A stretch of DNA of 59,257 nucleotides from Beijerinckiaceae bacterium. Its GTDB lineage: Bacteria > Pseudomonadota > Alphaproteobacteria > Rhizobiales > Beijerinckiaceae. The notes beneath the pieces are model-generated. The model ran no database searches and had not been told where the DNA came from. It saw only the letters and a program-made list of their open reading frames with translations. Every line of letters begins with the position of its first letter. The first letter of the stretch is position 1. Below, one piece after another: positions 26,954-50,301 of this stretch. The stretch spans positions 1 to 59,257 of the forward strand of contig CANGFE010000008.1 in the NCBI GenBank assembly GCA_947453155.1, in the 5' to 3' direction. Position numbers and translations under genes: made by a program.

Positions 26954-27943
26954 ATGTCGAACTGGTTCCGCGCGCCCATGGCCGCGACTCTTGCTTGCAC
27001 CGCGCTCCTCGCCAGTGCACCCGTGATGGCGCAAGGCAGCACGGATTGGCCGAGCCGCACCATCACAATCGTTGCTCCGCAGCCCCCCGGTGGCGGCTTT
27101 GACACCGTGGCCCGTGTGCTGGCTGACCGCATGCGCCCGATCCTGGGCCAATCGGTCATTGTTGAAAATCGTACGGGTGCGGGCACGCGCGTGGGCACGC
27201 AATCGGCGGCCAAAGCGCCGGCCGATGGCTATACGCTGATGATTGGCGCTCTTTCTAATATGGCGCTCAATCCGGGCCTCTATGACAATCTGCCCTATGA
27301 TCCGATCAAGGATTTCAAACTCGCCGGCATGGCCGTGACCTGGTCTTACACATTGGTCGCGCGCAAAGACCTGCCGATGAAAGATCTGAAAGAAGTCATC
27401 GCCTACGCCAAGGCCAATCCTGAAAAAATGACCTATGCCTCAGCGGGCCTTGGATCAGGCCAGCATATTGCCAGTGCTGTCATGCTGAAACTGGCGGATG
27501 CAAAGCTCACCCACGTACCCTATCGCGGATCGCAAGATGCCTATCAGGATATTCTGGGCGGTCGCGTTGATCTGTTCTTCGACATTTCGTCGGCTGCTAA
27601 ATCGCAAGTGGATGCGGGCACGGTGAAGGCACTTGCTGTGTCCTCAAAGGGACGCCAGCCTTCCCATCCCAATGTGCCGAGCGTTTTTGAAACGGATGTG
27701 GCGCCGCTCGATATGGAAAGCTGGTTTGGTCTGTTCGCACCCGCTGGCACGCCGGAACCGGTGCTTGCGAAATTGCGCGCTGCCATGGCGCAAGTCATGG
27801 CCATGCCTGATGTGCAGGAGCTTTTCGCCAAGAGCGGTGGACAGGTTCCTAAAAACAGCGCCGCAGAACAAGAAGCCAAAGTGCGCAGCGATATTGAACG
27901 CTGGACAAAGCTCATCCGCGAAGCGGGTATCAAGGGCGACTAA
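26954..27943 (+). CDS. Tripartite tricarboxylate transporter (Bug/TctC) binding protein 1
   Basis: The 329-residue periplasmic solute-binding protein starts with a signal peptide ending near ASAPVMAQG. Bug-family motifs are seen: PGGGFDTVARVLADRM, VENRTGAGTRVGT and VPYRGSQDAYQDILGGRVD. Classic Bug proteins bind carboxylates or aromatic acids and feed a TctA-TctB permease, but no such permease gene is in this window. The ribosome binding site CGGGAGG precedes the ATG. A second binding-protein gene of a different subfamily follows 27 bases later, suggesting joint transcription. Confidence 0.9.
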   Translation: MSNWFRAPMAATLACTALLASAPVMAQGSTDWPSRTITIVAPQPPGGGFDTVARVLADRMRPILGQSVIVENRTGAGTRVGTQSAAKAPADGYTLMIGALSNMALNPGLYDNLPYDPIKDFKLAGMAVTWSYTLVARKDLPMKDLKEVIAYAKANPEKMTYASAGLGSGQHIASAVMLKLADAKLTHVPYRGSQDAYQDILGGRVDLFFDISSAAKSQVDAGTVKALAVSSKGRQPSHPNVPSVFETDVAPLDMESWFGLFAPAGTPEPVLAKLRAAMAQVMAMPDVQELFAKSGGQVPKNSAAEQEAKVRSDIERWTKLIREAGIKGD

Positions 27944-27970: not shown

Positions 27971-29011
27971 ATGGGTACGTTCAAGAAACCCGCTATTTAC
28001 ACCACGATCTTGCTGTCAGGCCTGACGGTGACGAGTGCGGTTCGCGCAGATGCGATTGCTGATTTTTATCACGGCAAGACGATGCAGATGATCATCGCCA
28101 CATCACCGGGCGGCGATTACGACACGCGCGGACGCTTGCTCGCGCGACACATGAATCGCCTCATTCCCGGCGAGCCCACCATTGTTCCGCAAAACATGCC
28201 AGGCGGTGTCGGCATTGCTGCTGCCAATCATATGGCGGCAGCTGCGCCACGCGATGGGACGGTGCTGCATATGCTGATGCAGAATATGCCAGCCCATCAA
28301 GCGATCGGCGGACAGGGCGTAAAATTCGACACGCGCAAATTGATCTTCATCGGCAACACGACCGACACGCCCAATGTCATCAATTCCTGGCACACAACAG
28401 GCATCACCAAAATCGAGCAGGTAAAAACGCAAGAGCTGATCGTCGGCGCAGCTGGCACAGCAACACCTGCGGCTTATTATCCGGCAGCGCTCAATGCGAT
28501 GGCGGGCACGAAATTCAAAATCGTCGCGGGTTATCCGGGCGGCAATGATGTCAATCTCGCCATGGAAAAAGGCGAAGTCGGCGGGCGCGGCTCGAACAGC
28601 TGGGCCTCCTGGAAGAGCCTCAATCCGAAATGGATTGCCGAAGGCAAGGTTCATATTCTCGTGCAGATCGGCCTGCAGCGCGCCAAAGACCTGCCCGATG
28701 TGCCGCTGCTCTTCGAATTGGCCACCAATGAGGTCGACCGCGAAGTGCTGCGCTTCATCTCGGCCGATACGGCCATTTCGCGCTCCGCTGTCACCACGCC
28801 CGAAGTCCCGCCGGAGCGCGTGAAGGCTTTGCGCAAGGCCTTTATGGATACGATGAAGGACCCCCAATTCCTTGGCGAAGCCAATAAAATGGGCCTCGAT
28901 ATTTCACCCCTGTCGGGCGAAGAGTCACAGGCGGTGGCCGACAAGATCGTCGCAGCCCGGCCAGAAGTCATTGAACGGGCTAAGCTTATCCTTGAGGGGA
29001 CGGGAAAATAG
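27971..29011 (+). CDS. TctC-like periplasmic binding protein 2, atypical subfamily
   Basis: The 346-residue secreted protein has a signal peptide ending near TSAVRADA. It is a distant TctC relative. The first loop reads SPGGDYDTRGRLLARHMNR followed by IPGEPTIVPQNMPGG, a pattern shared with two other binding proteins here (46823-47860 and 49291-50301) but not with the first. The ligand is unknown. GGGGAGGA gives a strong ribosome binding site. It is the second gene of a two-gene unit, and the next gene (an exporter) starts 73 bases on without a similar leader. Confidence 0.85.
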   Translation: MGTFKKPAIYTTILLSGLTVTSAVRADAIADFYHGKTMQMIIATSPGGDYDTRGRLLARHMNRLIPGEPTIVPQNMPGGVGIAAANHMAAAAPRDGTVLHMLMQNMPAHQAIGGQGVKFDTRKLIFIGNTTDTPNVINSWHTTGITKIEQVKTQELIVGAAGTATPAAYYPAALNAMAGTKFKIVAGYPGGNDVNLAMEKGEVGGRGSNSWASWKSLNPKWIAEGKVHILVQIGLQRAKDLPDVPLLFELATNEVDREVLRFISADTAISRSAVTTPEVPPERVKALRKAFMDTMKDPQFLGEANKMGLDISPLSGEESQAVADKIVAARPEVIERAKLILEGTGK

Positions 29012-32662: not shown

Positions 32663-34498
32663 TCACTCGCGCCGACCCGCTGTATGGCCGCGATTGCCCT
32701 CGCCCGGAGCGCCGACATCGATCAAAGCTTCGATGACATAGGGCTTGCCTTCGCGCACGGCTTTTTCACCACGCAACAAAGCGGCCGCAAGTTCGGCTGC
32801 CGTTGCAAATGGACCTTCACCCGCCACACCTTGCGCACGCGCCAGACCCACGAGATCAACCGGCGGATCACTCATCTCCTGACCGACGAATTTATTCTCG
32901 ACCGGGCGACCGCGCTTCTTGGCCATCAATTCCTGATGCGCGACGTCATTGTAATAAACGCGGTTGTTGGCAATCACGAGAAGCAGCGGAATGCCCATAT
33001 GAGCTGCGGTCCAAAGTGCGCTTCCACCCATGCAGAAATCGCCATCACCCACGACACCCACACAGAGGCGGCCAGAATCTTTTAGCGCGAGCGCTGTGCC
33101 GATGGCATTGGCCGGGCCCGACCCCACACCGCCACCGCCATCAAAGCCGACATAATCCAAAGGTCCTTTGAAATCGACGGTTTCTGACGGCCAGCCGAGC
33201 GAGAAGCCAGCCATGGTGACGTCACGCGTCTCGGTAAATTCGCGCATGACGAGGGCGAGATCTTTCAAACCCATCATGCCTTCGCTGCGCGGCTTTGGCA
33301 GTGGTGCCGCGTTGCGTGCAGGCCATTTGGCTGGCGACTTTTCTTTTGTGCCACGCAAACGATGAACCGCGTCGATCAATGGGCGAATGAGCTCATTGGG
33401 CGACGCGAGAATTTTGAGATCGCAAGCCGGTAGGCCGAAATAATCCATGTTCCAGCCGTTGTGGAGATATTCATCGAGCGAGCAATGAATGATTTTGGCA
33501 TCAACGGGCACATTCTTGCCGAGCGTTTGCGAGAAATGACCTTTGAGATCCATCCAATCGAGCGAGAGGATAACGTCGGCTTCTTTTGTCGCTTGTGTTG
33601 TCGCGGGCGAGGGACGGAAACGCGGCTCGAAAGCATGCAGAGGATGCGCGGTCGGGAATGAAGCGGCTGTTTTCATATCGGTCAAAACCAGCGCGCCCAA
33701 AGCTTCAGCCAAAGCAACGCGTGCATCCCAATCTTCTTGCGAGCGCGAAACGCGGCCCATCAAAATCATCGGCTTTTTGGCGTTGACCAAGAGACGCGCG
33801 GCTTCTTCGACAGCTTCAACGGAAGGCGCAGGTGCGCAACCGGGCTGATGGCGCGCGGGATCGGGGAAATGGACCGGACCCTCAAGCTTTGATTCCTGCA
33901 AAGCGACATCGAGGCAGACATAGGTCGGTCCGCGCGGCTCTGTGGCAGCAATCTGATGCGCGCGCATCATGGCTTCGAGCGTGGCGCCAACCGAGCGGGG
34001 CTCGTCATCCCATTTTGTGTAATGGCGAATCAAAGCGCCCTGATCTTTGGCGGTGTGAATCCAGTCAATCCATGGGCGGCGCTCTTCCGCATCGCCCGGA
34101 CCTGTCGCACCCAGCATGAAGACGGGCGCGCGACCGCACCAAGCATTGAAGATCGCCATGGTCGCATGCATCAGGCCGACATTGGAATGAAGTGCCACGC
34201 CCATCGGCTTTTCGGTGACTTTGGCATAGCCCTGCGCAATGGCGACCGCATGTTCTTCATGCAGGCAGACCAGCATTTGCGGATCGCGATTGCCCAGATA
34301 ATTGACCATGGAATCATGCAGGCCGCGATAGCTCGCACCCGGCGTCAGCGCGATATAGCGCAAGTCGAGACGGCGCAGCATTTCGGCCATGGCGTCCGAA
34401 GCCCAGCCCATTTCGGCATTGCTGGCTTTTTGCAGCTGATCCTTGTCCGGGAAAGTGGCGGTGGCGAGTTTAATGTCTTGCTTCTTGGCGTCCGTCAT
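32663..34498 (-). CDS. Thiamine-diphosphate-dependent enzyme, acetolactate-synthase-like
   Basis: The 611-residue protein has three typical domains: an N-terminal pyrimidine-binding domain with the catalytic glutamate in LHEEHAVAIAQGYA, a central domain (KKPMILMGRVS), and a C-terminal diphosphate-binding domain with GDGDFCMGG and, after the usual spacing, ANNRVYYND (GDG-NN motif). Relatives include acetolactate synthase, benzoylformate decarboxylase and oxalyl-CoA decarboxylase. None of these can be assigned from sequence alone. The start at 34498 is set by CGGGAGGA six bases upstream. It is divergent from a secreted isochorismatase-like gene with 155 bases between them. A 2-keto-acid decarboxylase or ligase acting on an imported acid is my inference. 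Confidence 0.85.
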   Translation of the reverse strand: MTDAKKQDIKLATATFPDKDQLQKASNAEMGWASDAMAEMLRRLDLRYIALTPGASYRGLHDSMVNYLGNRDPQMLVCLHEEHAVAIAQGYAKVTEKPMGVALHSNVGLMHATMAIFNAWCGRAPVFMLGATGPGDAEERRPWIDWIHTAKDQGALIRHYTKWDDEPRSVGATLEAMMRAHQIAATEPRGPTYVCLDVALQESKLEGPVHFPDPARHQPGCAPAPSVEAVEEAARLLVNAKKPMILMGRVSRSQEDWDARVALAEALGALVLTDMKTAASFPTAHPLHAFEPRFRPSPATTQATKEADVILSLDWMDLKGHFSQTLGKNVPVDAKIIHCSLDEYLHNGWNMDYFGLPACDLKILASPNELIRPLIDAVHRLRGTKEKSPAKWPARNAAPLPKPRSEGMMGLKDLALVMREFTETRDVTMAGFSLGWPSETVDFKGPLDYVGFDGGGGVGSGPANAIGTALALKDSGRLCVGVVGDGDFCMGGSALWTAAHMGIPLLLVIANNRVYYNDVAHQELMAKKRGRPVENKFVGQEMSDPPVDLVGLARAQGVAGEGPFATAAELAAALLRGEKAVREGKPYVIEALIDVGAPGEGNRGHTAGRRE

Positions 34499-34653: not shown

Positions 34654-35286
34654 ATGGATATGAGAAAGCTTTTGGCTTGCGCTTTTATTGCCGGTGCAGG
34701 CTTTGTGGGAACCGCGCGCGCGGATGCCATTTCTGATTGGAAAGATCTCGCTTTCCCGCCAGCACCAGAGTTGAAGCCGGCGAAAGTCGATCCCGCAACA
34801 ACCGCGCTGCTGCTGCTCGATTTCACCAATCAAACCTGCACGCCGGAACGCCGTCCGCGCTGCGCCGCGCAAGTGCCGGGTCTTGCCAAATTGCTTGGCG
34901 AAGCACGCGCCAAAAACATGATGGTGATCTACAGCGTGGCGACCGCAGGCTCGGACCGCAAAGATATTCTGGCTCCACTCGCCGCGCGTGATGGCGATCC
35001 GGTTCTGCCTCCGCTCGGGCCTGACAAATTCATCGCCAGCGATTTCGAAAAAATGCTGAAAGACCGCAAGATCGAAACATTAATCGTTACCGGCACGGCC
35101 GCACATACATCTGTTCTACACACAGGTGGCGAAGCGGTTTTGCGCGGCTTCAAAGTTGTCGTGCCGGTGGATGGCATGTCCTCGAATGAAGCCTTCAGCG
35201 AAGCCTATACGGCTTGGCACATGGTCAATGCTGCACGCATCATGAATGGCGTGACGCTGACGCGCGTGAATATGATCTCGTTTTAA
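34654..35286 (+). CDS. Secreted isochorismatase-fold protein A, cysteine nucleophile absent
   Basis: The 210-residue protein has a signal peptide (cleavage near ARADA) and an isochorismatase/cysteine-hydrolase domain. Asp56 in LLLDF and Lys125 in DKF match the general catalytic Asp and Lys, but the usual nucleophilic cysteine position is Ser153 in GTAAHTSVL. EntB and PhzD, which cleave a vinyl ether, also lack this cysteine, so hydrolysis without it is possible. Cys62 and Cys70 flank an RPR motif and could form a disulfide. It resembles the protein at 35346-35975 (about 40 % by eye), including the same C-terminal MISF. AAGGGAGGA gives a strong ribosome binding site. Substrate unknown. Confidence 0.8.
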   Translation: MDMRKLLACAFIAGAGFVGTARADAISDWKDLAFPPAPELKPAKVDPATTALLLLDFTNQTCTPERRPRCAAQVPGLAKLLGEARAKNMMVIYSVATAGSDRKDILAPLAARDGDPVLPPLGPDKFIASDFEKMLKDRKIETLIVTGTAAHTSVLHTGGEAVLRGFKVVVPVDGMSSNEAFSEAYTAWHMVNAARIMNGVTLTRVNMISF

Positions 35287-35293
35287 AAACAAA

Positions 35294-35325
35294 AAGCGCC
35301 GCCGTGCTGGAGCAGGGCGGCGCTT
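35294..35325. terminator. Hairpin between convergent isochorismatase-like genes
   Basis: A 10-bp stem AAGCGCCGCC / GGCGGCGCTT with a 12-base loop sits eight bases after the first gene's stop. An A-run to its left becomes a T-run on the minus strand, so it can terminate the minus-strand gene; on the plus strand the T-run is short. Confidence 0.65.
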
Positions 35326-35345
35326 CATGTCTGGCGCAAGATTTC

Positions 35346-35975
35346 TTAGAAAGAAATCATATCCGTCTTGGTGAGCTTGACGCGATCGGCAAGACCGGGG
35401 CCATTGACCAGCTGCCAGGCGACAATCTGTTCTGACCAGGCATTATTGCCGGACATGCCATCAATCGGCAGCAGCACATCATAATTGCGGAAGGCCGCGC
35501 CAGTTGCCGTGTAAAGCACCGCGCCGTTCGATGCCGTACCGACCGGAATTACAGTCTTGATGCCCTTGTCTTTGAGGATCTTGTCGAGATCGGTTCCCAA
35601 AAACTTGTCTGCTCGCGCAGCAACAATCGGTTCGCCTGCTTGTGCGGCCAATTCCGGCAAGAAATTGGTCATGACAGGATCATTGCCAGTCACGGCATAA
35701 ACAACCGTCACGCCCTTTGCGCGCGCATCCGCGAGAAGCTTTTTGACCGGCGCAATGGTCGCCACACAACGCGGGCGTGCTTGCTCGGTGCAAGACGTTT
35801 TCATGAAATCCATGACGATCAAAGCCGTGGTCTTCACATCGGGCGTTGCTTTCTGCAAAGCAGGCATGTCAGGGGCTTTGATGCTGCCCCATTCAGCAGA
35901 CAGATCGGCTGCCTGAACAGAAGCACCAAATGCGGCCAAGAGAGCTGCTGCGAGGATAGTCTTTATTTTCTTCAT
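35346..35975 (-). CDS. Secreted isochorismatase-fold protein B, cysteine nucleophile absent
   Basis: The 209-residue protein has a signal peptide ending near SVQAAD and the same fold as its neighbour. Asp56 (VMDF) and Lys124 (DKF) are kept, while the nucleophile position is Ala152 in GTASNGAVL. Cys62 and Cys70 fall at exactly the same residue numbers as in protein A, bracketing a shared RPR, and both end in MISF. It is therefore a diverged duplicate, now in convergent orientation. It may be an EntB/PhzD-like hydrolase or a non-catalytic binding protein. AAGGAG precedes the ATG. The Vgb/heme gene lies upstream on the same strand, 20 bases away, so the two are probably cotranscribed. Confidence 0.8.
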   Translation of the reverse strand: MKKIKTILAAALLAAFGASVQAADLSAEWGSIKAPDMPALQKATPDVKTTALIVMDFMKTSCTEQARPRCVATIAPVKKLLADARAKGVTVVYAVTGNDPVMTNFLPELAAQAGEPIVAARADKFLGTDLDKILKDKGIKTVIPVGTASNGAVLYTATGAAFRNYDVLLPIDGMSGNNAWSEQIVAWQLVNGPGLADRVKLTKTDMISF

Positions 35976-35995: not shown

Positions 35996-37843
35996 TCAGC
36001 GCGCTACGCGAGCCGCGAGTGCTTTCATGTCATCTTCACTGCGCACTGTCATGACAGCGACGCGGCGTGTGCGCGAATAGGGCAGAACAACTTGGATTTT
36101 TCCATCCTTTTCGAGCAATGAAATGTGACGTGTTTCCGTGCCGCGTGAGGGCAAGTCAAACAAGGTCCATTGCGAATTGGCCGGATCATATTTGGCAATC
36201 GCATCCGTGCTCCACAAATTGGTCCAGACCTGATGGCGCTTATCAATCGCAATCTGGTAGGGCTGTTGTGTTGCTGGATTGGGTAGCGGGATCAAATCAA
36301 CTTTGTTGGATTTGATATTGATCCGCGCCAGATTGCCACCGAAGGAATTGCCGACATAGACAAATTCACCATCGGGATTCTTGTCGCCGCCCATGCGCCG
36401 CGCACCCTGCGCCCATGGATAAGGCGTGTTGAAATCCGGCACGACATATTTCGCATAAAGCGCTTTTTCATCTGCCGTCAGACGATCCATTTCTGCCTGC
36501 ACAGGCGGTAGTTGAATCTCGCCCGTCTGGCCATTGACGGGATCACCGCGCATGACTCTGTCGAATTTCATGTCCAGCCACCAGCCATTGCCAGCCGAAT
36601 CCGCGGCTGTGCCATAGACGGTGCCAACACCTTTTTCAGTCTTGTAGGTGAGTGACTTGAATTCCAGAAAAGCTTCTTTCTCGGGATCAAAACGCAACAC
36701 ACCATCGGGCGTTGTCACCCAAATGAAACCTTTGGGGTCCACATCCAGCGTGCCGGCCGTGCCCGACATCGGCTTGGGCGGCGTATAGACTTTCACTTGC
36801 TCCGTTTTCGGATCAAGCTTGGCAAGGCCTGTGGGATTGCCGCCGGGTGACGAGCCGGGGCGCGTGTTGAACCAGATGAAACCTTTCTGGTCACGCACAA
36901 TGCCATGCGTCTGCGAAGCAAAGCCGTTTGGCTCATCGACTTTGATCGCCTTGAACGCACCCGTTTTCGCATCAATGCGACCAACGGTGATGGTACGGCT
37001 CGGCCATGAATGGGTGAACCAGATATTGCCGTCGAGATCGGCTTCGGCATCATGCACGCCATAGCCGCCGAACATGCCGGACGGTGTGCCCTTGGTCCAA
37101 TCACTGCCGTCATTGGTGAAGTAAGTGCCGGGCAATTTCAGATCGGGATCAAGCGGCACATCATATTCTTTGAACACAGCGCGCGCGGCCTCGCCTGTCG
37201 GGCGTGTGCGCAGATTGTAATTCATGGAGGAATCGCCCGGACCCCGCGCACGCGCGAGATAACGCGACAATTCTTCCTGATGGCCTGCAATGCTAGCATT
37301 AGGCGGCTCATGATCGCCACGATGCACGCCCAACACATTGAAGCGCTTCATCGCTTCGAGAATGGAATTCCAGCCAGCTTCGTCAAACTTATGCTGCAAG
37401 GGATATGCGGCCGTGTGGCAGCCTGTGCAGGTTTTGCGGATGAATGTTTTCATGCGCGCATCATCAGCTGTCGCTTCTGGTAATGCGGCCAAGAATTCAT
37501 CGCCCGGCAATTGCTTCACGAAATCGGCGAAAGATTGCAGCGTGAAATCCTGCGACTTAGCGCCATTCAACGCGACATCGCTTTTGCCTGTGTCATAGGC
37601 AATGGCCTGCGCCCAGACGCGATATTTGCCGTCCGTCATATCGGGGAAATAATAGCGGCCGGTCTGATCGGTGAAGACGGTCGTCGTGATCGGTGAGCCG
37701 TCCATTTTGGCCGAGACAGTGACGCCCGCCATGGCTGCGCCGTCTTTATTTTTGACCGTGCCGGAGAGCAGAGAATCCGCCTGAGCCGGCAGAGCGAAAG
37801 AAGCGAAAAGCGCAACGGCGCTGACAGTGGATAGATATTTCAT
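35996..37843 (-). CDS. Periplasmic fusion: carboxypeptidase-regulatory-like domain, heme-c site, Vgb-like propeller
   Basis: The 615-residue secreted protein (signal MKYLSTVSAVALFASFALPAQ) has a beta-sandwich CarboxypepD_reg-like domain at about 25-100, a c-type heme site CTGCH at residues 139-143, and a long beta-propeller at about 230-600 with repeated blades such as DLDGNIWFTHS, DQKGFIWFNTR, DPKGFIWVTTP and DKRHQVWTNLW, as in virginiamycin B lyase-like (Vgb) proteins. Antibiotic lyase activity is unlikely: Vgb-like propellers are widespread and the heme points to electron transfer. The start at 37843 is set by GAGGGAGG six bases upstream. It begins 12 bases after the cytochrome c gene, which supports a shared redox role. 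Substrate unknown. Confidence 0.82.
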   Translation of the reverse strand: MKYLSTVSAVALFASFALPAQADSLLSGTVKNKDGAAMAGVTVSAKMDGSPITTTVFTDQTGRYYFPDMTDGKYRVWAQAIAYDTGKSDVALNGAKSQDFTLQSFADFVKQLPGDEFLAALPEATADDARMKTFIRKTCTGCHTAAYPLQHKFDEAGWNSILEAMKRFNVLGVHRGDHEPPNASIAGHQEELSRYLARARGPGDSSMNYNLRTRPTGEAARAVFKEYDVPLDPDLKLPGTYFTNDGSDWTKGTPSGMFGGYGVHDAEADLDGNIWFTHSWPSRTITVGRIDAKTGAFKAIKVDEPNGFASQTHGIVRDQKGFIWFNTRPGSSPGGNPTGLAKLDPKTEQVKVYTPPKPMSGTAGTLDVDPKGFIWVTTPDGVLRFDPEKEAFLEFKSLTYKTEKGVGTVYGTAADSAGNGWWLDMKFDRVMRGDPVNGQTGEIQLPPVQAEMDRLTADEKALYAKYVVPDFNTPYPWAQGARRMGGDKNPDGEFVYVGNSFGGNLARINIKSNKVDLIPLPNPATQQPYQIAIDKRHQVWTNLWSTDAIAKYDPANSQWTLFDLPSRGTETRHISLLEKDGKIQVVLPYSRTRRVAVMTVRSEDDMKALAARVAR

Positions 37844-37854
37844 GGCAGCCTCCC

Positions 37855-38241
37855 TCAATTATCGTCGCGGCGTTCGCCGGTGGTGCGCGCAGTCGGCTTG
37901 GCATCGGGAGGTGGGGGATCGAGCGTTTGCACATAAGCGACAATCGCGCGGATCTGCGTGGCATTATATTGGTGCTTGAAACCGGGCATCCGCTGCGGGA
38001 TGCCATTGGAAATGACTTCCGCCATCACGTCAGCCTGACCGCCGAGATTTTCCTTCGACAGGGCGGGGCCAAAACGCCCCGAGGTGATGAGCGGCTTGGT
38101 GTGACAGACACCGCAGGATTGCTCGTAAAGCTGGCGGCCCGCCGCCAGATCAGGCTTGGCCGCAGGGCCACCCGCATTTTGCGCAAAGGCTGGCAGAGCC
38201 AAAAGGCTCGCAAATAGGAAAACGCCCGTCGTTCGGGTCAT
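37855..38241 (-). CDS. Periplasmic class I cytochrome c
   Basis: The 128-residue protein has a signal peptide (cleavage near LPAFAQ), one heme site CGVCH and a probable axial methionine in QRMPGF. The last 20 residues are Pro- and Arg-rich. It is a small soluble electron carrier. It is first in a unit with the heme-propeller gene (12 bases) and isochorismatase-like protein B, and divergent from the Tat-exported molybdopterin enzyme, for which it is a plausible electron acceptor (inference). GGGGAGGA precedes the ATG. Confidence 0.9.
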   Translation of the reverse strand: MTRTTGVFLFASLLALPAFAQNAGGPAAKPDLAAGRQLYEQSCGVCHTKPLITSGRFGPALSKENLGGQADVMAEVISNGIPQRMPGFKHQYNATQIRAIVAYVQTLDPPPPDAKPTARTTGERRDDN

Positions 38242-38403
38242 CGGCTCCTCCCCAGAGTTATCTTTTTATCGGAGCTAGCCTATGCCCAAGCGGGCGGGGC
38301 TGAAAAGGGGCGAAAGGCCCGAAATCGCCTCTCTCATACAAATTGCGCAGACGCGCGATTCATGGCTCACTGGCTCCCAAGAAAATAACACCGGGAGGAC
38401 ATG

Positions 38404-40659
38404 ATGAACCGAGCCCCTAGCCGTCGCGCTTTCCTGGCAGGATCAGGCGCACTGACCATTGCCATTGCGCTGCCTGGCATTTCGGCCAAAGCCGCCCCCA
38501 TGGCCTCTCGCCTGCCGATGAAGGCCGACAATCTCGCCACCTATATCAGCATTGATAAAGACGGCCGCGCCACAGGATGGATCGGCAAAATCGATATGGG
38601 CCAAGGCACGGATGTGGGCTGGGCGCAGATGATCGCCGAAGAGCTCGATCTGCCACTGGAGCGCGTCGCCATTGTGCAAGGCGATACGCATGTCACCATC
38701 AATATGGGCGGCGCCTCCGGCTCGACCGGTATTTGGAAAGGCGGTGTCGCCATGCGTGCGGCCGCCGCTGAAGCCCGCCTTGTGCTGATGGAAATGGCAT
38801 CGGCCAAACTCGGCCTGCCGCTGGATCAATTGCGCACAGAGAACGGTCGCGTCATTGCGATGAACGATCCCGCCAAAAGCATGGGCTATGGCGAGCTGAT
38901 CGGCGGCCAGCATTTTGGCGAAACGCTTGAATGGAACAAAATCATTGGCAGCGATCTGTCAGTGAAAGGCCGCGCCAAGCCGAAATCGCCTAAGGATTAT
39001 CGCATTGTCGGCAAGAGCGGTATTCGCCGACGCGATGTGGACGGCAAAATTCTCGGCACAATGGATTATCTGGTCGATATGAAAGTCGACGGCATGGTGC
39101 ATGGCCGCGTCATACGTCCGCCTGTGGCAGGTGCCATCCCCGTCGCAGTCGATGAATCTTCTGTCAAAGATATTCCGGGCGTCCAGATCGTGCGTGACAA
39201 AGGCTTCATTGGACTTGTTGCGCCGCGTGAATGGGATGCGGTGAAAGCTGCGCGCCAGTTGAAGGTGACGTGGTCTGATGCACTCGCGCCCTTCCCGACG
39301 CATGAAAAACTGTATGAGCATATTCGCAAAGCCAATGTCATCAAGCGTGACGTGGATAAAGAAAAAGGCGATGTCGCAGCCGCTTTCACAAAGGCTGCGC
39401 GCGTCATTGAGGCCGAATATGAATGGCCGTTTCAATCTCATGCACCCATGGGACCGGCGTGCGGCCTTGTCGATGTGAAGCCCGATGGCGTGCGCATGTG
39501 GACGGGTTCGCAAAAGCCCCATTATGCGCGCGACGGTGTGGCCATGTTGCTTGGGCTCGACCCGGAAAAAGTCATTTGCTATTCCATGGTGGGTCCGGGC
39601 TCTTATGGGCGCAATGATTCCGGCGACGTCGTAATGGATGCAGCCGTTCTCTCCAAAGCTGTTGGCAAACCTGTACGCGTGCAGAGCATGCGCCATGAAG
39701 GCCATGGCTGGGATCCGAAAGCACCAGCCAGCGTGCACAAGTCGCGCGTGGCGCTGGATGTAGACAATCGCATCATCGGCTGGCAGTTCGATTCGAAAAC
39801 ATTTTCGAAACGCGACTTCCTCAACAATGAAGGCGACCCGTCACATACATTGGCAGGCCAATTGCTCGGACTGCCACTCAAGCCCGTGCTGATCTTCGGG
39901 CCGCCGGAAGAAAATTATGATTTCGAGGCTTTCCAGAAAGTCTCGAACATCATCCCGCCTCTGCTCGACCGTGCCTCGCCCTTGCGCACAGCGCATTTGC
40001 GCGATCCCGGCGGGCCACAGGTTCATTTTGCGGTCGAATCCTTCATGGATGAAGTCGCCTATTCGTTGGGCCAAGACCCGGTCGAATTCCGTCTGCGCTA
40101 TATTAAAGACGCACGCGATGTGGCGGTGATTAAAGCTGCAACAGAAAAAGCGGGCTGGCAGAAACGCACCGCCGCGCGCAAGCAGACACAAGGCGATGTG
40201 ATGATCGGGCAGGGCATTGCTTATGCGGTGCGAGCAGGCACGCGCGTGGCGACTGTTGCCGAAGTCGAAGTGCACAAAACAACGGGTCGCGTGAAAGTGC
40301 GCAAGATCACGGTGGCGCATGATTGCGGACAGATCGTCAATCCGGATCTCATCCGCAGTGCAGTTGAAGGCAATATTGTCCAATCCACCAGCCGCGCTCT
40401 GTTTGAAGAAGTCACCTTCGACACTAAAAATGTCACAAGCGTGGATTGGAACGGCTATCGCATTGCCGATATCACCGATCGTCCGCTCGAGATCGATGTC
40501 ATCTTGATTGACCGGCCCGATGTGGCGCCAACGGGCGCAGGCGAAGCCTCCTCACGACCGACCGCTGCGGCACTCGCCAATGCCATCTATGATGCCACAG
40601 GTCTGCGTCTGCGCCGTGCACCGCTCACACCAGAACGCATCAAGGCAGGAATGGCTTGA
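38404..40659 (+). CDS. Tat-exported molybdopterin oxidoreductase, IorB-like (xanthine dehydrogenase family)
   Basis: The 751-residue protein opens with a Tat signal (SRRAFLAGSGALTIAIALPG). It is the large, single-chain type of molybdenum hydroxylase subunit related to isoquinoline 1-oxidoreductase beta. The GGASGSTG loop for the pterin and the C-terminal GAGE at 711-714, holding the base glutamate Glu714, are present. Such enzymes hydroxylate N-heteroaromatics or oxidise aldehydes. IorB-type enzymes normally work with a small [2Fe-2S] subunit, and none is encoded in this window. The start at 38404 is five bases after GGAGG; an ATG at 38401 is adjacent. Divergent from cytochrome c; a MEKHLA gene overlaps the stop. 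Confidence 0.87.
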   Translation: MNRAPSRRAFLAGSGALTIAIALPGISAKAAPMASRLPMKADNLATYISIDKDGRATGWIGKIDMGQGTDVGWAQMIAEELDLPLERVAIVQGDTHVTINMGGASGSTGIWKGGVAMRAAAAEARLVLMEMASAKLGLPLDQLRTENGRVIAMNDPAKSMGYGELIGGQHFGETLEWNKIIGSDLSVKGRAKPKSPKDYRIVGKSGIRRRDVDGKILGTMDYLVDMKVDGMVHGRVIRPPVAGAIPVAVDESSVKDIPGVQIVRDKGFIGLVAPREWDAVKAARQLKVTWSDALAPFPTHEKLYEHIRKANVIKRDVDKEKGDVAAAFTKAARVIEAEYEWPFQSHAPMGPACGLVDVKPDGVRMWTGSQKPHYARDGVAMLLGLDPEKVICYSMVGPGSYGRNDSGDVVMDAAVLSKAVGKPVRVQSMRHEGHGWDPKAPASVHKSRVALDVDNRIIGWQFDSKTFSKRDFLNNEGDPSHTLAGQLLGLPLKPVLIFGPPEENYDFEAFQKVSNIIPPLLDRASPLRTAHLRDPGGPQVHFAVESFMDEVAYSLGQDPVEFRLRYIKDARDVAVIKAATEKAGWQKRTAARKQTQGDVMIGQGIAYAVRAGTRVATVAEVEVHKTTGRVKVRKITVAHDCGQIVNPDLIRSAVEGNIVQSTSRALFEEVTFDTKNVTSVDWNGYRIADITDRPLEIDVILIDRPDVAPTGAGEASSRPTAAALANAIYDATGLRLRRAPLTPERIKAGMA

Positions 40660-41271: not shown

Positions 41272-42507
41272 ATGACTTCGCTTTCAGCTTTGACGACAGC
41301 CTCCCAATCTTTGGCTCTTTTGAAAAATGTGGCCAAGGCCAAAGCCGCACCAAAAACCGATATTTTGCCGACAACCAGCGGCGACAAAAAGCTCGATGCT
41401 TTACTAATGGGCGGCACCAATGTCTGGCATCATGCCACGGGCAGCGTGGCGAACAAGACGGCCAATGTCGTCAAAGCAGGCGTCAAAGAATTACAAAATG
41501 TCGTTGGCCGCGCGATCAAATATGCCTTTATGGATTCAAGCTTTCTGACACGGCTTACGGGAAGCGAAGCCAATGGCGCGGCGGTGATGACCAATACGCA
41601 AAAGCAGGCTGTGCAGGAGGCGTTTGATTATATTTCCGGTGTGATCAACCAGAGCTTTGAACTGGTCACAGACCCCACACAGGCGGATATTGTTTTCGGT
41701 ACAAATAATCAAGGCGGGACGAGTGCGGGCTACGCCTATTTGCCCAATCGCAGCGGCAGCCATGCGCAATATCTGATGCTCGCCAATGATCAGGCGACCA
41801 ATAACACTTTCTCCAACGGCTCCTATGGCCTGCTCACTTTGCTGCATGAGATTGGCCACACATTGGGCCTCAAACATCCCGGCAATTATAATGCAGGCGG
41901 CGGTGGCACGCCGGGGCCTTATCTGTCCAAGGCCGATGACAATCGGCGCAATACGATCATGTCTTATTATGGCGCGAGCGGCATTTCGGCCAATCCGCAA
42001 ACGCTCATGGCTTATGACATTGCAGCGCTGCAATATCTTTACGGCGCCAACCGTAGCCCGACCAATGCCGAGGCGCTGGCCAAGCGCCAGACTACGAGTT
42101 TTACCGATGGTTGGGCGGGGCTGGAAACTCTTTGGACCCCACAAGGCGCGTCACTCGATTTGAGCGCCATGACGAAAAGCAATGTCGTTGATCTGCGCGA
42201 AGGTGCGTTCAGCTCCATCGGCTCAACCAAGAATAATGTGAGCCTTGCCTATGGCAGCAAGGTTTCGAGCGTCACAGGCGGATCGGGCAGCGACCAGGTC
42301 TATTCCGCCGAGAGCGGCACAATGAGCCTGAATGGCGGTGCAGGTGCGGATACGCTCTATCTGGCAGGCTCGGCCAAAGAATGGACGCTGAACGGATCGA
42401 CCTATACGCGCAAAGTGGGCGGCAAGGTCGTGGCGACCATTGCAGCGACGGGCTTTGAGACGGTCGCCTATTATAATCCGGCCAAGACCGCCCTGATGCG
42501 TGCCTGA
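41272..42507 (+). CDS. Serralysin-like (M10B) zinc metalloprotease with short RTX region
   Basis: The 411-residue protein has the full zinc motif HEIGHTLGLKHP at residues 192-203 and a Met-turn at Met230 (TIMSYY), so it should be an active metzincin. The C-terminal part resembles the serralysin beta-roll but has only about two RTX-like nonapeptides (GGSGSDQVY, GGAGADTLY) near residues 340-365, fewer than in secreted serralysins. There is no N-terminal signal peptide, as expected for type I secretion, yet no secretion genes (ABC exporter, membrane fusion protein) are nearby. A loop with GGGGTPGP follows the zinc site. It stands alone between the MEKHLA and transporter genes. Confidence 0.85.
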   Translation: MTSLSALTTASQSLALLKNVAKAKAAPKTDILPTTSGDKKLDALLMGGTNVWHHATGSVANKTANVVKAGVKELQNVVGRAIKYAFMDSSFLTRLTGSEANGAAVMTNTQKQAVQEAFDYISGVINQSFELVTDPTQADIVFGTNNQGGTSAGYAYLPNRSGSHAQYLMLANDQATNNTFSNGSYGLLTLLHEIGHTLGLKHPGNYNAGGGGTPGPYLSKADDNRRNTIMSYYGASGISANPQTLMAYDIAALQYLYGANRSPTNAEALAKRQTTSFTDGWAGLETLWTPQGASLDLSAMTKSNVVDLREGAFSSIGSTKNNVSLAYGSKVSSVTGGSGSDQVYSAESGTMSLNGGAGADTLYLAGSAKEWTLNGSTYTRKVGGKVVATIAATGFETVAYYNPAKTALMRA

Positions 42508-46822: not shown

Positions 46823-47860
46823 TCACTTGTCGGCAAGCAGCTTGGCAAAACGCTGGCGAATAGGCTCTGGCGTTTTGGCCGCTTTTTCCAAAAGCCCTTG
46901 GACGTAAGCGCCATCGACCGGGCTCGTCATAATGCCGGCTTTCAGCATTTCTGAGCGGAAGGTTTCATCCATCGCCATATCCATGAAAGCCTTACGCAAG
47001 ATCGCTGCACGATCGGCAGGGATTTCTGGTGGCGCCACCACCGGCAACGCCATGAAGAAAGGCAGTTCTGCGAAATCGAGCAAGGCAAAATCATCGCCCT
47101 GTTTCACCAATTCGCGCGCAATCGGCACATTCGGATAATCAGGCAAACGCGTCGTGCGGCCGAAAGCAATCAGGGGTTTCAGCTTTTTTTCCGCCCACAG
47201 CTGCGGACGACCCACCATGATCGCGCTGATGTCGACAATCTGCCCGTCGACTTCGCCGCGTTCCATCGCCAGCCAGATTTCATTGGCGCCCGGAAAACCG
47301 CGCACAACATCGACATTCATGCCGACCATATCTTTGCCAATCAGCGCGAACGTAATGTTGGTCGAGCCGCCTCGTGTGCCGCCCAAAATCGCGGGCTTCG
47401 ACAATTTGGCGAGTTCCGCCATATTGCTCGCGGGAAAATTCTCGTTCACCACCATCAGATAGGCATCGTCCTTGTAGGACGAGAGCGAGCCGAGCCAGGT
47501 CAGTTTCAGCGGATCGAAATTGGCATTGGGGTCATTCAGAAATGCCAATTGCGGCAGAGCGCGGCTCATCACAACGATGGAGAGCCCATCGCGATCAAGC
47601 GTATGGGCCAGCTTATTGGCAATGGCGAGACCGCCAGCGCCGGGCTGGTTCTGCACGACAATGCTGGGGCGCCCCGGAATAAAGCGCGCCAGATGGCGGG
47701 CAATGGTGCGACCCGCCGTGTCGTAATAGCCGCCTGTCGAGGAGCCGACGATAATGTTGAGCGTCTTGCCCGCATAAAACTGGTTTTGCGCTTGCGCCTC
47801 GGCCAGACCCATGGCGGGTGCTGCGGCGAGTGAGGCCAAAGCCTCCCGTCGTGAGAGCAT
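46823..47860 (-). CDS. TctC-like periplasmic binding protein 3, atypical subfamily
   Basis: The 345-residue secreted protein begins MLSRREALASLAAAPAMG, a twin-arginine-like signal. The first loop STGGYYDTAGRTIARHLAR and IPGRPSIVVQNQPGAGG place it in the same subfamily as the proteins at 27971 and 49291. GGGAGGA five bases before the ATG at 47860 fixes the start; an ATG at 47980 would add 40 non-signal residues. It is first in a unit with the crotonase gene and divergent from the amidohydrolase gene. No permease partner is present. Confidence 0.85.
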   Translation of the reverse strand: MLSRREALASLAAAPAMGLAEAQAQNQFYAGKTLNIIVGSSTGGYYDTAGRTIARHLARFIPGRPSIVVQNQPGAGGLAIANKLAHTLDRDGLSIVVMSRALPQLAFLNDPNANFDPLKLTWLGSLSSYKDDAYLMVVNENFPASNMAELAKLSKPAILGGTRGGSTNITFALIGKDMVGMNVDVVRGFPGANEIWLAMERGEVDGQIVDISAIMVGRPQLWAEKKLKPLIAFGRTTRLPDYPNVPIARELVKQGDDFALLDFAELPFFMALPVVAPPEIPADRAAILRKAFMDMAMDETFRSEMLKAGIMTSPVDGAYVQGLLEKAAKTPEPIRQRFAKLLADK

Positions 47861-48026
47861 ATCTTCCTCCCTAGTGGCGAGCGTCTGTCGCGCTCTGTTT
47901 CTGCCGGCAATGATAGCCCGATTGTAGGGGCCTGCAATGCCCTTGCCTCGGTCTCGGGCCGGTTCTAGGCTTACCGTCAAGCGCCGAAGACAGGCGCGGG
48001 GCCAAAAGGCCCCTAGGGAGGACTAG

Positions 48027-49290: not shown

Positions 49291-50301
49291 ATGCGCCTTG
49301 CAGCTGTCTGCATCATAGCCGCCGCATCCATATCGGCTGCGCATGCACAAAGCCCCGAGGCTTTCTACAAGGGCAAGACCATCGACATGATGATCGGCTC
49401 GGAAGCGGGCTCGGGCTATGATGCCTATGCGCGCCTTGTTGCCAATCACATGGGAAAACATATTCCTGGGCGGCCCAATATTGTCGTCAAACAAATGGTC
49501 GGTGCAGGCGGCATTGTCGCCACCAATTATCTCGCCAAGATTGCGAATAAAGATGGCAGCGTGATTGGGCAGGTGCAAAACACCGTGCCTTTCCAGCCTT
49601 TGGTCACACCGGGTGGCGAGCAATTTGATGCGACAAAACTTGGCTATATCGGCTCAGCCAATAGTGAAGTCGCGCTGGCTTTCACGTGGCATTCATCAGC
49701 AACGAAGACGCTTTCCGATTTGCAAAAGCGCGAGACAATCATGGCGGGTGTGATCGGCTCCATCAGCGCCAATTATGCTTATGCGATGAGTGATCTGGCG
49801 GGCGCCAAAATCCGCCTCATCACCGGTTATGCGGGTGCTGGACAATCCATGCTGGCTTTAGAGCGTGGCGAGATTGAAGGCTATCCGGCGCTGTTCTGGT
49901 CTACATTCAAAACGACCAAGCCGGATTGGATTGCGCAGAAGAAGGTCAATTTTCTCGTGCAGCTGGCACTCAAAAAACATCCTGAATTGCCAGATGTGCC
50001 TCTGATCTTTGATTATCTGAAAACAGATGATGATCGCGCTGCTGCTGAATTGCTGCTCGCGCCGCAATTGGCCGGACGCCCCTTCATCACCCCGCCAGAT
50101 ATTCCCAAAGAGCGACTGGCTGCTTTGCGCGCCGCCTTTAATACAATGATGGCAGATGCTGATTTCAAAGCCGATGCGGGCAAGCGCAATATGGAAGTGC
50201 AGCTGGTCACAGGCGAAGAAATTGCCGGCGTGGTGGCGCGCGCTTATGCCACCAAGCCGGAGATTGTCGCCAAAGTTCGTCGCATGAGCGAGCCGCGCTG
50301 A
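49291..50301 (+). CDS. TctC-like periplasmic binding protein 4, atypical subfamily
   Basis: The 336-residue protein has a short signal peptide ending near ISAAHAQS. EAGSGYDAYARLVANHMGK and IPGRPNIVVKQMVGAGG repeat the pattern of the two other atypical TctC proteins in this window. The ligand is unknown. TGGGGAGA stands before the ATG. It follows the amidohydrolase gene by 22 bases and ends directly against the convergent glutamate-synthase-like gene (50301/50302). Confidence 0.85.
   Translation: MRLAAVCIIAAASISAAHAQSPEAFYKGKTIDMMIGSEAGSGYDAYARLVANHMGKHIPGRPNIVVKQMVGAGGIVATNYLAKIANKDGSVIGQVQNTVPFQPLVTPGGEQFDATKLGYIGSANSEVALAFTWHSSATKTLSDLQKRETIMAGVIGSISANYAYAMSDLAGAKIRLITGYAGAGQSMLALERGEIEGYPALFWSTFKTTKPDWIAQKKVNFLVQLALKKHPELPDVPLIFDYLKTDDDRAAAELLLAPQLAGRPFITPPDIPKERLAALRAAFNTMMADADFKADAGKRNMEVQLVTGEEIAGVVARAYATKPEIVAKVRRMSEPR

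Follow-up and report, generated by a model that had tools for sequence, protein, structure and literature searches.

A convergent gene pair points to a separate, mostly exported and cysteine-less branch of the isochorismatase fold

Proteins of the isochorismatase fold are usually treated as a family of cysteine hydrolases, and the question raised by the locus described here is whether members that lack the nucleophilic cysteine form a group of their own and, if so, what they might do. The locus lies in a 59,257-nucleotide stretch of a Beijerinckiaceae genome (GCA_947453155.1, contig CANGFE010000008.1), referred to below as the window. Two convergent genes, given here with their stop codons, encode the isochorismatase-fold proteins P0001 (34654–35286, plus strand, 210 aa) and P0002 (35346–35975, minus strand, 209 aa), each with a signal-peptide-like start. 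Between the two stop codons lies a perfect 10-bp inverted repeat (35294–35303/35316–35325), read from the sequence, which resembles a terminator stem common to both genes. The coordinates, reading frames, lengths and convergent layout were all as given by the first-pass annotation of this DNA, and its estimate of about 40% identity agreed with the 77 identical residues counted among 188 aligned (41%, E = 1e-51), a similarity that is therefore not due to chance. Asp56, Lys125 (Lys124 in P0002), Cys62, Cys70, an RPR motif, Ser153 (Ala152 in P0002) and a terminal MISF were likewise located at the residue numbers it had reported.

Both proteins matched PF00857 (72.5 bits for P0001 and 77.4 bits for P0002, against a curated cut-off of 27), and no other Pfam family was detected in either at E ≤ 0.001. 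NCBIfam matches were distant only, the highest being to biuret amidohydrolase (36.3 and 37.6 bits, cut-off 370). An AF2 model, made for P0001 and not for P0002 from a 75-row alignment, had a mean pLDDT of 93.2 and a pTM of 0.86. When this model was used as a Foldseek query, known members of the fold were recovered among the 50 matches listed with a probability of 1.00 and TM values of about 0.6–0.7, the E-values being about 1e-13 to triuret and biuret hydrolases and 5e-12 to EntB and VabB. On this model, an isochorismatase fold is predicted for P0001.

The active site was read from gapless HMMER alignments of P0001 against N-carbamoylsarcosine amidase (1nba), a biuret hydrolase (6xjm) and a triuret hydrolase (6xj4), using the accepted triad numbering for 1nba. 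In these alignments Asp56 (34819–34821, plus strand) falls on chain Asp33 of 6xjm and the canonical catalytic lysine falls on Pro120 (35011–35013, plus strand), ruling out Lys125 (35026–35028, plus strand) as that residue; Lys125 instead stands five positions past Pro120, opposite a small residue directly before the conserved Phe (Phe126 in P0001). The triad of the triuret hydrolase TrtA, listed as Asp24-Lys129-Cys162 in PMC7948467, fits the gapless alignment provided that the chain numbering is ahead by three. Residues were then counted over 182 full-length ORFs, reduced to 130 distinct mature sequences, all scoring above 140 bits and covered almost completely; a partial copy and the broken copy L182, which is split by a stop codon and apparently decaying, were excluded. 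Asp56 was kept in all 130 sequences, lysine was found at position 120 in none, and the nucleophile position (Ser153 of P0001, 35110–35112, plus strand; Ala152 of P0002, 35520–35522, minus strand) was occupied by Ala (87), Ser (25), Thr (14), Val (3) or Ile (1) and never by Cys. Position 125 held Lys in 127 sequences and Arg in three, and Thr157 (130/130), Trp29 (126/130), Glu183 (124/130) and Arg69 (123/130) were also fixed or nearly so. The corresponding counts for 38 ordinary relatives from the same searches (E ≤ 1e-6) were 38 for Asp56, 38 for Lys120, 0 for Lys125 and 34 for Cys153. Judged from the two sets of counts, two catalytic residues out of three are missing from the branch, in which a different set of residues is fixed instead. 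Measured against the cysteine hydrolase (IHL) triad, all 130 sequences have the aspartate and none has the catalytic lysine or the nucleophilic cysteine, nor do they show the EntB-type pattern (Asp and canonical Lys without Cys), as the lysine is missing too. The earlier statement that Ser153 and Ala152 replace the nucleophile was thus borne out, whereas its description of Asp56 and Lys124/125 as catalytic-type residues stood for the aspartate and fell for the lysine. It is scarcely credible that these are ordinary cysteine hydrolases (amidases) whose active site has been misread. The Pfam match and the fold assignment would suit that reading, as would the nearest structures among the matches listed, which are biuret and triuret hydrolases; however, the two residues are absent from every branch sequence, the pairwise alignments are gapless at both positions, and a C162S triuret hydrolase is recorded as inactive in PMC7948467.

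Comparison with described systems placed the branch nearest to TrtA (6XIX) and the biuret hydrolase BiuH (6XJM, 6AZN), which were the closest by Foldseek among the matches listed and among the best by phmmer. Fold and aspartate are common to both sides, but in place of such a lysine and cysteine the branch has Lys125, Cys62/Cys70, Arg69 and Trp29, and its members mostly begin with signal-peptide-like sequences. The fold is also shared with EntB, VabB and VibB (2FQ1, 5XO1, 3TG2), and EntB likewise combines the aspartate with the lack of a cysteine nucleophile. Unlike the branch, in which the canonical lysine occurs in 0/130 sequences, EntB retains it, its triad positions being Asp37-Lys123-Gly156 in PMC12553813, and no siderophore genes were recognised among the identified neighbours of branch genes. 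Depleted triads are also described for E. coli YecD (Asp-Lys-Gly) and YcaC (Asp-Ala-Cys) (PMC12553813); YecD is without the cysteine only and YcaC without the lysine only, whereas the branch is without both. PsIsc1 and VdIsc1 of plant pathogens resemble the branch in being isochorismatase-fold proteins found outside the cell, but according to PMC4348438 they carry no signal peptide and need a catalytic triad that is conserved in them.

To what extent the pattern is that of a family was addressed by profile searches. A profile of P0001 and P0002 retrieved 16 proteins, the window's two included, from 10 out of 149 genomes in the window's family, and all 16 shared the pattern. An enlarged profile yielded 80 loci in GTDB genomes; as the scan was seeded by one DNA pattern and these are the best 80 of 140 confirmed candidates, it is no census. 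Their taxon labels covered Alpha- and Betaproteobacteria, 'Deltaproteobacteria', Paenibacillus, a Clostridium-labelled isolate, Planctomycetota and a spirochaete, of which individual labels may err because many loci are MAG contigs. The same best 80 of 140 loci contained 89 branch ORFs at 231.8–320.4 bits (profile A2) and five ordinary isochorismatases at 39–52 bits, and in samples of 385 genomes from the class and 398 from the phylum, branch members scored 263–293 bits and the next match 75.9. Upon whole-ORF rescoring, two ordinary proteins reached 119 and 121 bits, the maximum for ordinary relatives, and the 130 distinct branch sequences fell between 153 and 321 bits. The gap was narrower within the window's genus, which contains a divergent group of four members at 153–164 bits that are without Trp29 and mostly without Arg69, with Arg125 in three of the four. 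Three of these divergent copies (L178, L179 and L181) have Arg125, Ser at the nucleophile position and no Trp29, with Cys62 and Cys70 kept. Matches at E ≤ 1e-20 were present in 41 of 51 genomes of the genus, where a single genome had as many as six and a number of the matches were fragments or contained internal stops. In an order-level sample, 4 of 297 genomes had a match, the window's own included. The branch is densely represented in one genus and patchily outside it.

In an IQ-TREE analysis of 87 rows with six ordinary proteins as the outgroup, the branch formed a single clade (100/100) on a long stem of 4.73 changes per column, with a long-branch warning that concerned mostly outgroup rows. 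No close relative was found in the PDB, where the top profile match scored 62 bits, and the one annotated plasmid record found to carry a branch member uses the generic name 'isochorismatase family protein'. Among the literature matches listed, in which subscription journals are mostly uncovered, no title or abstract opening described the branch. The proposal of a distinct family was upheld by the profile searches (Cys at the nucleophile position in 0/130, Cys62 in 129/130, Cys70 in 128/130), and the generic annotation together with the 62-bit PDB match agreed with the view that it is uncharacterised. Taken from sequence comparison, these results point to a separate, mostly exported, cysteine-less branch of the isochorismatase fold that is uncharacterised as far as the searches show. 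What stands at this level is a variant of a known fold: the branch, its residue pattern, its predicted fold and its broad but patchy distribution.

The N-termini of P0001 and P0002 were judged by eye to be signal-peptide-like with A-x-A-type ends. In P0001 the probable signal peptide spans residues 1 to about 23 (34654–34722, plus strand) and ends in A-R-A; residues 1–20 have a pLDDT of 57–60 in the AF2 model. A hydrophobicity rule for signal peptides was passed by 79 of the 89 branch ORFs in the best 80 of 140 loci, and some of the 10 that failed are start-choice or contig-end cases. L068 and four Bacillota members (L081, L082, L087 and L099), however, look like real exceptions with no signal peptide, so that the label 'secreted' may suit most of the branch but not these five. 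Export thus appears to be usual rather than universal. As a separate observation, L082, L087 and L099 start with a CPIC motif and L081 with CPIY.

The second hallmark is a pair of cysteines, Cys62 (129/130) and Cys70 (128/130), that in P0001 enclose a loop containing R67-P68-R69 (34837–34863, plus strand). In the model of P0001, C62 lies in the loop after strand 50–55, which ends just before Asp56, and C70 at or near the start of helix 68–86. Alignment-anchored spacings, measured for 125 of 128 sequences, were seven residues in 97, five in 22, four in five and six in one. Both cysteines had been described as gained, a word that needs care for Cys62: ordinary Herbaspirillum isochorismatases have a cysteine aligned at 62 in five of five cases and at 70 in none of five, and among 38 other ordinary proteins Cys62 was found in one and Cys70 in another. 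The two residues probably form a disulfide. The joint loss of both in L098, which keeps D56, R69, K125 and E183, was counted for this bond, as was the proportion of ORFs passing the signal-peptide rule. A purely periplasmic disulfide is a poor fit to the Bacillota members, which keep both cysteines, only four residues apart, with no signal peptide, and to L187, which has lost Cys70, Arg69 and Glu183 while keeping Cys62 and may be a decaying copy.

It was also considered that the nucleophile had been relocated, with Cys62 or Cys70, beside Arg69, acting as a catalytic or redox-active cysteine. Both residues are near Asp56 in sequence and almost invariant, Arg69 adjoins Cys70, and the Bacillota members that keep them are presumably in a reducing compartment. 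Such a role is nevertheless distinctly unlikely, given that L098 dispenses with both cysteines while its other hallmark residues are intact, that the loop between them varies from four to seven residues, and that most members look exported to where a free thiol tends to oxidise. Nicotinamidases bind zinc near the active site, and the cysteine pair, with other residues, could similarly bind a metal ion; a C-x(4-7)-C arrangement is conserved after strand 1 and three of the four Bacillota members carry the N-terminal CPIC. The 75-row alignment, however, contains no conserved His or further Cys and L098 does without the pair, making a metal site very unlikely.

The first-pass annotation regarded the two proteins as twins produced by duplication. 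The tree separated P0001, in a subclade of 19 rows (100/99), from P0002, in one of seven rows (96/94), and a recent tandem duplication was therefore ruled out. Furthermore, a single branch gene was present, within the fetched DNA, in 71 of the best 80 of 140 loci; a convergent pair was seen in seven of these 80 (L024–L030), with the genes adjacent in six, and L079 and L095 have two members each in other arrangements. As read from the match list, 8 of the 51 genomes in the window's genus carry two convergent members no more than about 2.5 kb apart. The duplicate description was not sustained, and the pair is made up of old paralogues that have this arrangement in the window lineage.

The best explanation for the conserved residues, to which a probability of roughly 0.45 is given, is that branch members are thiol-free acid-base hydrolases or lyases of the cell envelope with a rebuilt active site. 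Asp56, presumably the residue that serves as acid/base in Cys-less EntB-like members, would be kept in that function; Lys125 (rarely Arg) and Arg69 would bind a negatively charged or carboxylate-bearing small molecule; hydrolysis or lysis would proceed by general acid-base chemistry with no covalent thioester; and, in the oxidising periplasm, the Cys62-Cys70 disulfide would staple a loop over the pocket. The new fixed Lys125, together with Arg69, suggests that an anionic group is bound, and pocket residues that stay so constant across Alphaproteobacteria, Paenibacillus, Planctomycetota and a spirochaete speak for an active function. EntB, which works without a cysteine but keeps the canonical lysine, is no more than a partial precedent, and the divergent 153–164-bit group was counted against this explanation. 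No activity was found for any branch member; catalysis and substrate class are inferred, and the role would most likely be a dispensable step in the breakdown of small organic compounds, for example aromatic acids or sugar acids.

Genes surrounding the branch members were compared by custom ORF calling and clustering in the best 80 of 140 loci, and Pfam was run on 128 proteins encoded directly next to the branch genes at loci outside the window lineage (proteins below 130 aa were skipped and one of 1521 aa was omitted). In the window lineage the pair is flanked on one side by a TPP-dependent enzyme (32663–34498, minus strand; NCBIfam best PRK08327, 219.1 bits, under the cut-off of 456). On the other side are a CarboxypepD_reg plus Vgb/SMP-30-like beta-propeller protein with a CxxCH haem motif (35996–37843, minus strand; Vgb_lyase 41.7 bits, under the cut-off of 50), a small c-type cytochrome (37855–38241, minus strand) and the large subunit of a molybdenum hydroxylase (38401–40659, plus strand), which is probably exported, with a twin-arginine-like start by eye. 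Co-occurrence with the TPP enzyme or the haem propeller had been put forward as a mark of the family. Each of these two clusters was found in at least 9 of the best 80 of 140 loci, figures that are lower bounds because many loci are short, and seven of the nine in each case belong to the window lineage. A general link was rejected, the association being mostly local to that lineage. The haem-propeller cluster also occurs by clustering at the single-gene loci L041 and L042, and the TPP-enzyme cluster occurs with a di-haem oxidoreductase (Pfam on the L040 copy) at the single-gene loci L038 and L040.

Elsewhere the neighbours were heterogeneous. The branch gene of L068 is surrounded by two TPP enzymes of another cluster, TctC receptors and UbiD. 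In L198 (Caballeronia grimmiae plasmid p3, 282489–303097) a branch member follows a sugar ABC transporter in a sugar/sugar-acid island of SMP-30, enolase-superfamily, ALDH and GMC genes. Dienelactone hydrolases, a PEP-mutase-type lyase, Mo hydroxylases, MFS transporters and an aromatic-ring hydroxylase were seen at other loci. Among the 128 immediate neighbours the commonest family was MFS_1 (8), with four TctC receptors and four chemotaxis-receptor signalling domains, and no dominant partner family was present (maximum 8). The catabolism of small organic acids or sugars seems to be the common flavour, which with such varied neighbours and a top family of 8/128 is an impression; UbiD, the TPP enzymes, the dienelactone hydrolases, the Mo hydroxylases, the aromatic-ring hydroxylase and the Caballeronia sugar island were nonetheless counted for a catabolic role.

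The main rival to such an enzyme is a pseudoenzyme, a non-catalytic binding or scaffold protein whose pocket holds a ligand for a transporter, a sensor or a periplasmic redox complex. The loss of two of three triad residues would be expected of such a protein, the TctC, chemotaxis-receptor and MFS neighbours could be its partners, and the pair in the window lineage adjoins cytochrome c, haem-propeller and Mo-hydroxylase genes. Asp56, Thr157 and Lys/Arg125, however, are each kept in 130/130 sequences, whereas a pure binder need not keep a catalytic Asp56, and the neighbours include no single dominant partner family; a pseudoenzyme is therefore considered rather improbable. The thiol-free hydrolase or lyase remains the preferred reading, and its boldest form, which is possible but doubtful, is a new class of periplasmic enzyme in which a displaced Lys125 replaces the Lys-Cys machinery beneath a disulfide-stapled lid and the pocket accepts anionic substrates. 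Such a class may comprise a lyase or a lactone/ester hydrolase of periplasmic sugar-acid or aromatic-acid breakdown.

With two catalytic residues missing and a different set fixed across phyla, this looks like an unstudied branch with a different chemistry. A multi-phylum branch in which the lysine and the cysteine are both missing and a new basic residue is fixed would stand for a second chemistry on the isochorismatase fold, and would make the names 'isochorismatase family' and 'cysteine hydrolase' misleading for its genes. Pending the discovery of an activity, the finding is of moderate interest; the pattern of D56, no K120, K or R125 and C62-C70 already offers a simple sorting test for members.

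Two further features of the window were recorded. Four genes for TctC-like solute receptors lie at 26954–27943, 27971–29011, 46823–47980 and 49291–50301; the Pfam scores were 33 bits for the second and 26.5 bits for the third (cut-off 27), and the other two were recognised by eye. The ORF at 41272–42507 carries the zinc-protease motif HEIGHTLGLKHP and Gly/Asp-rich repeats, and resembles a serralysin-type secreted metalloprotease.
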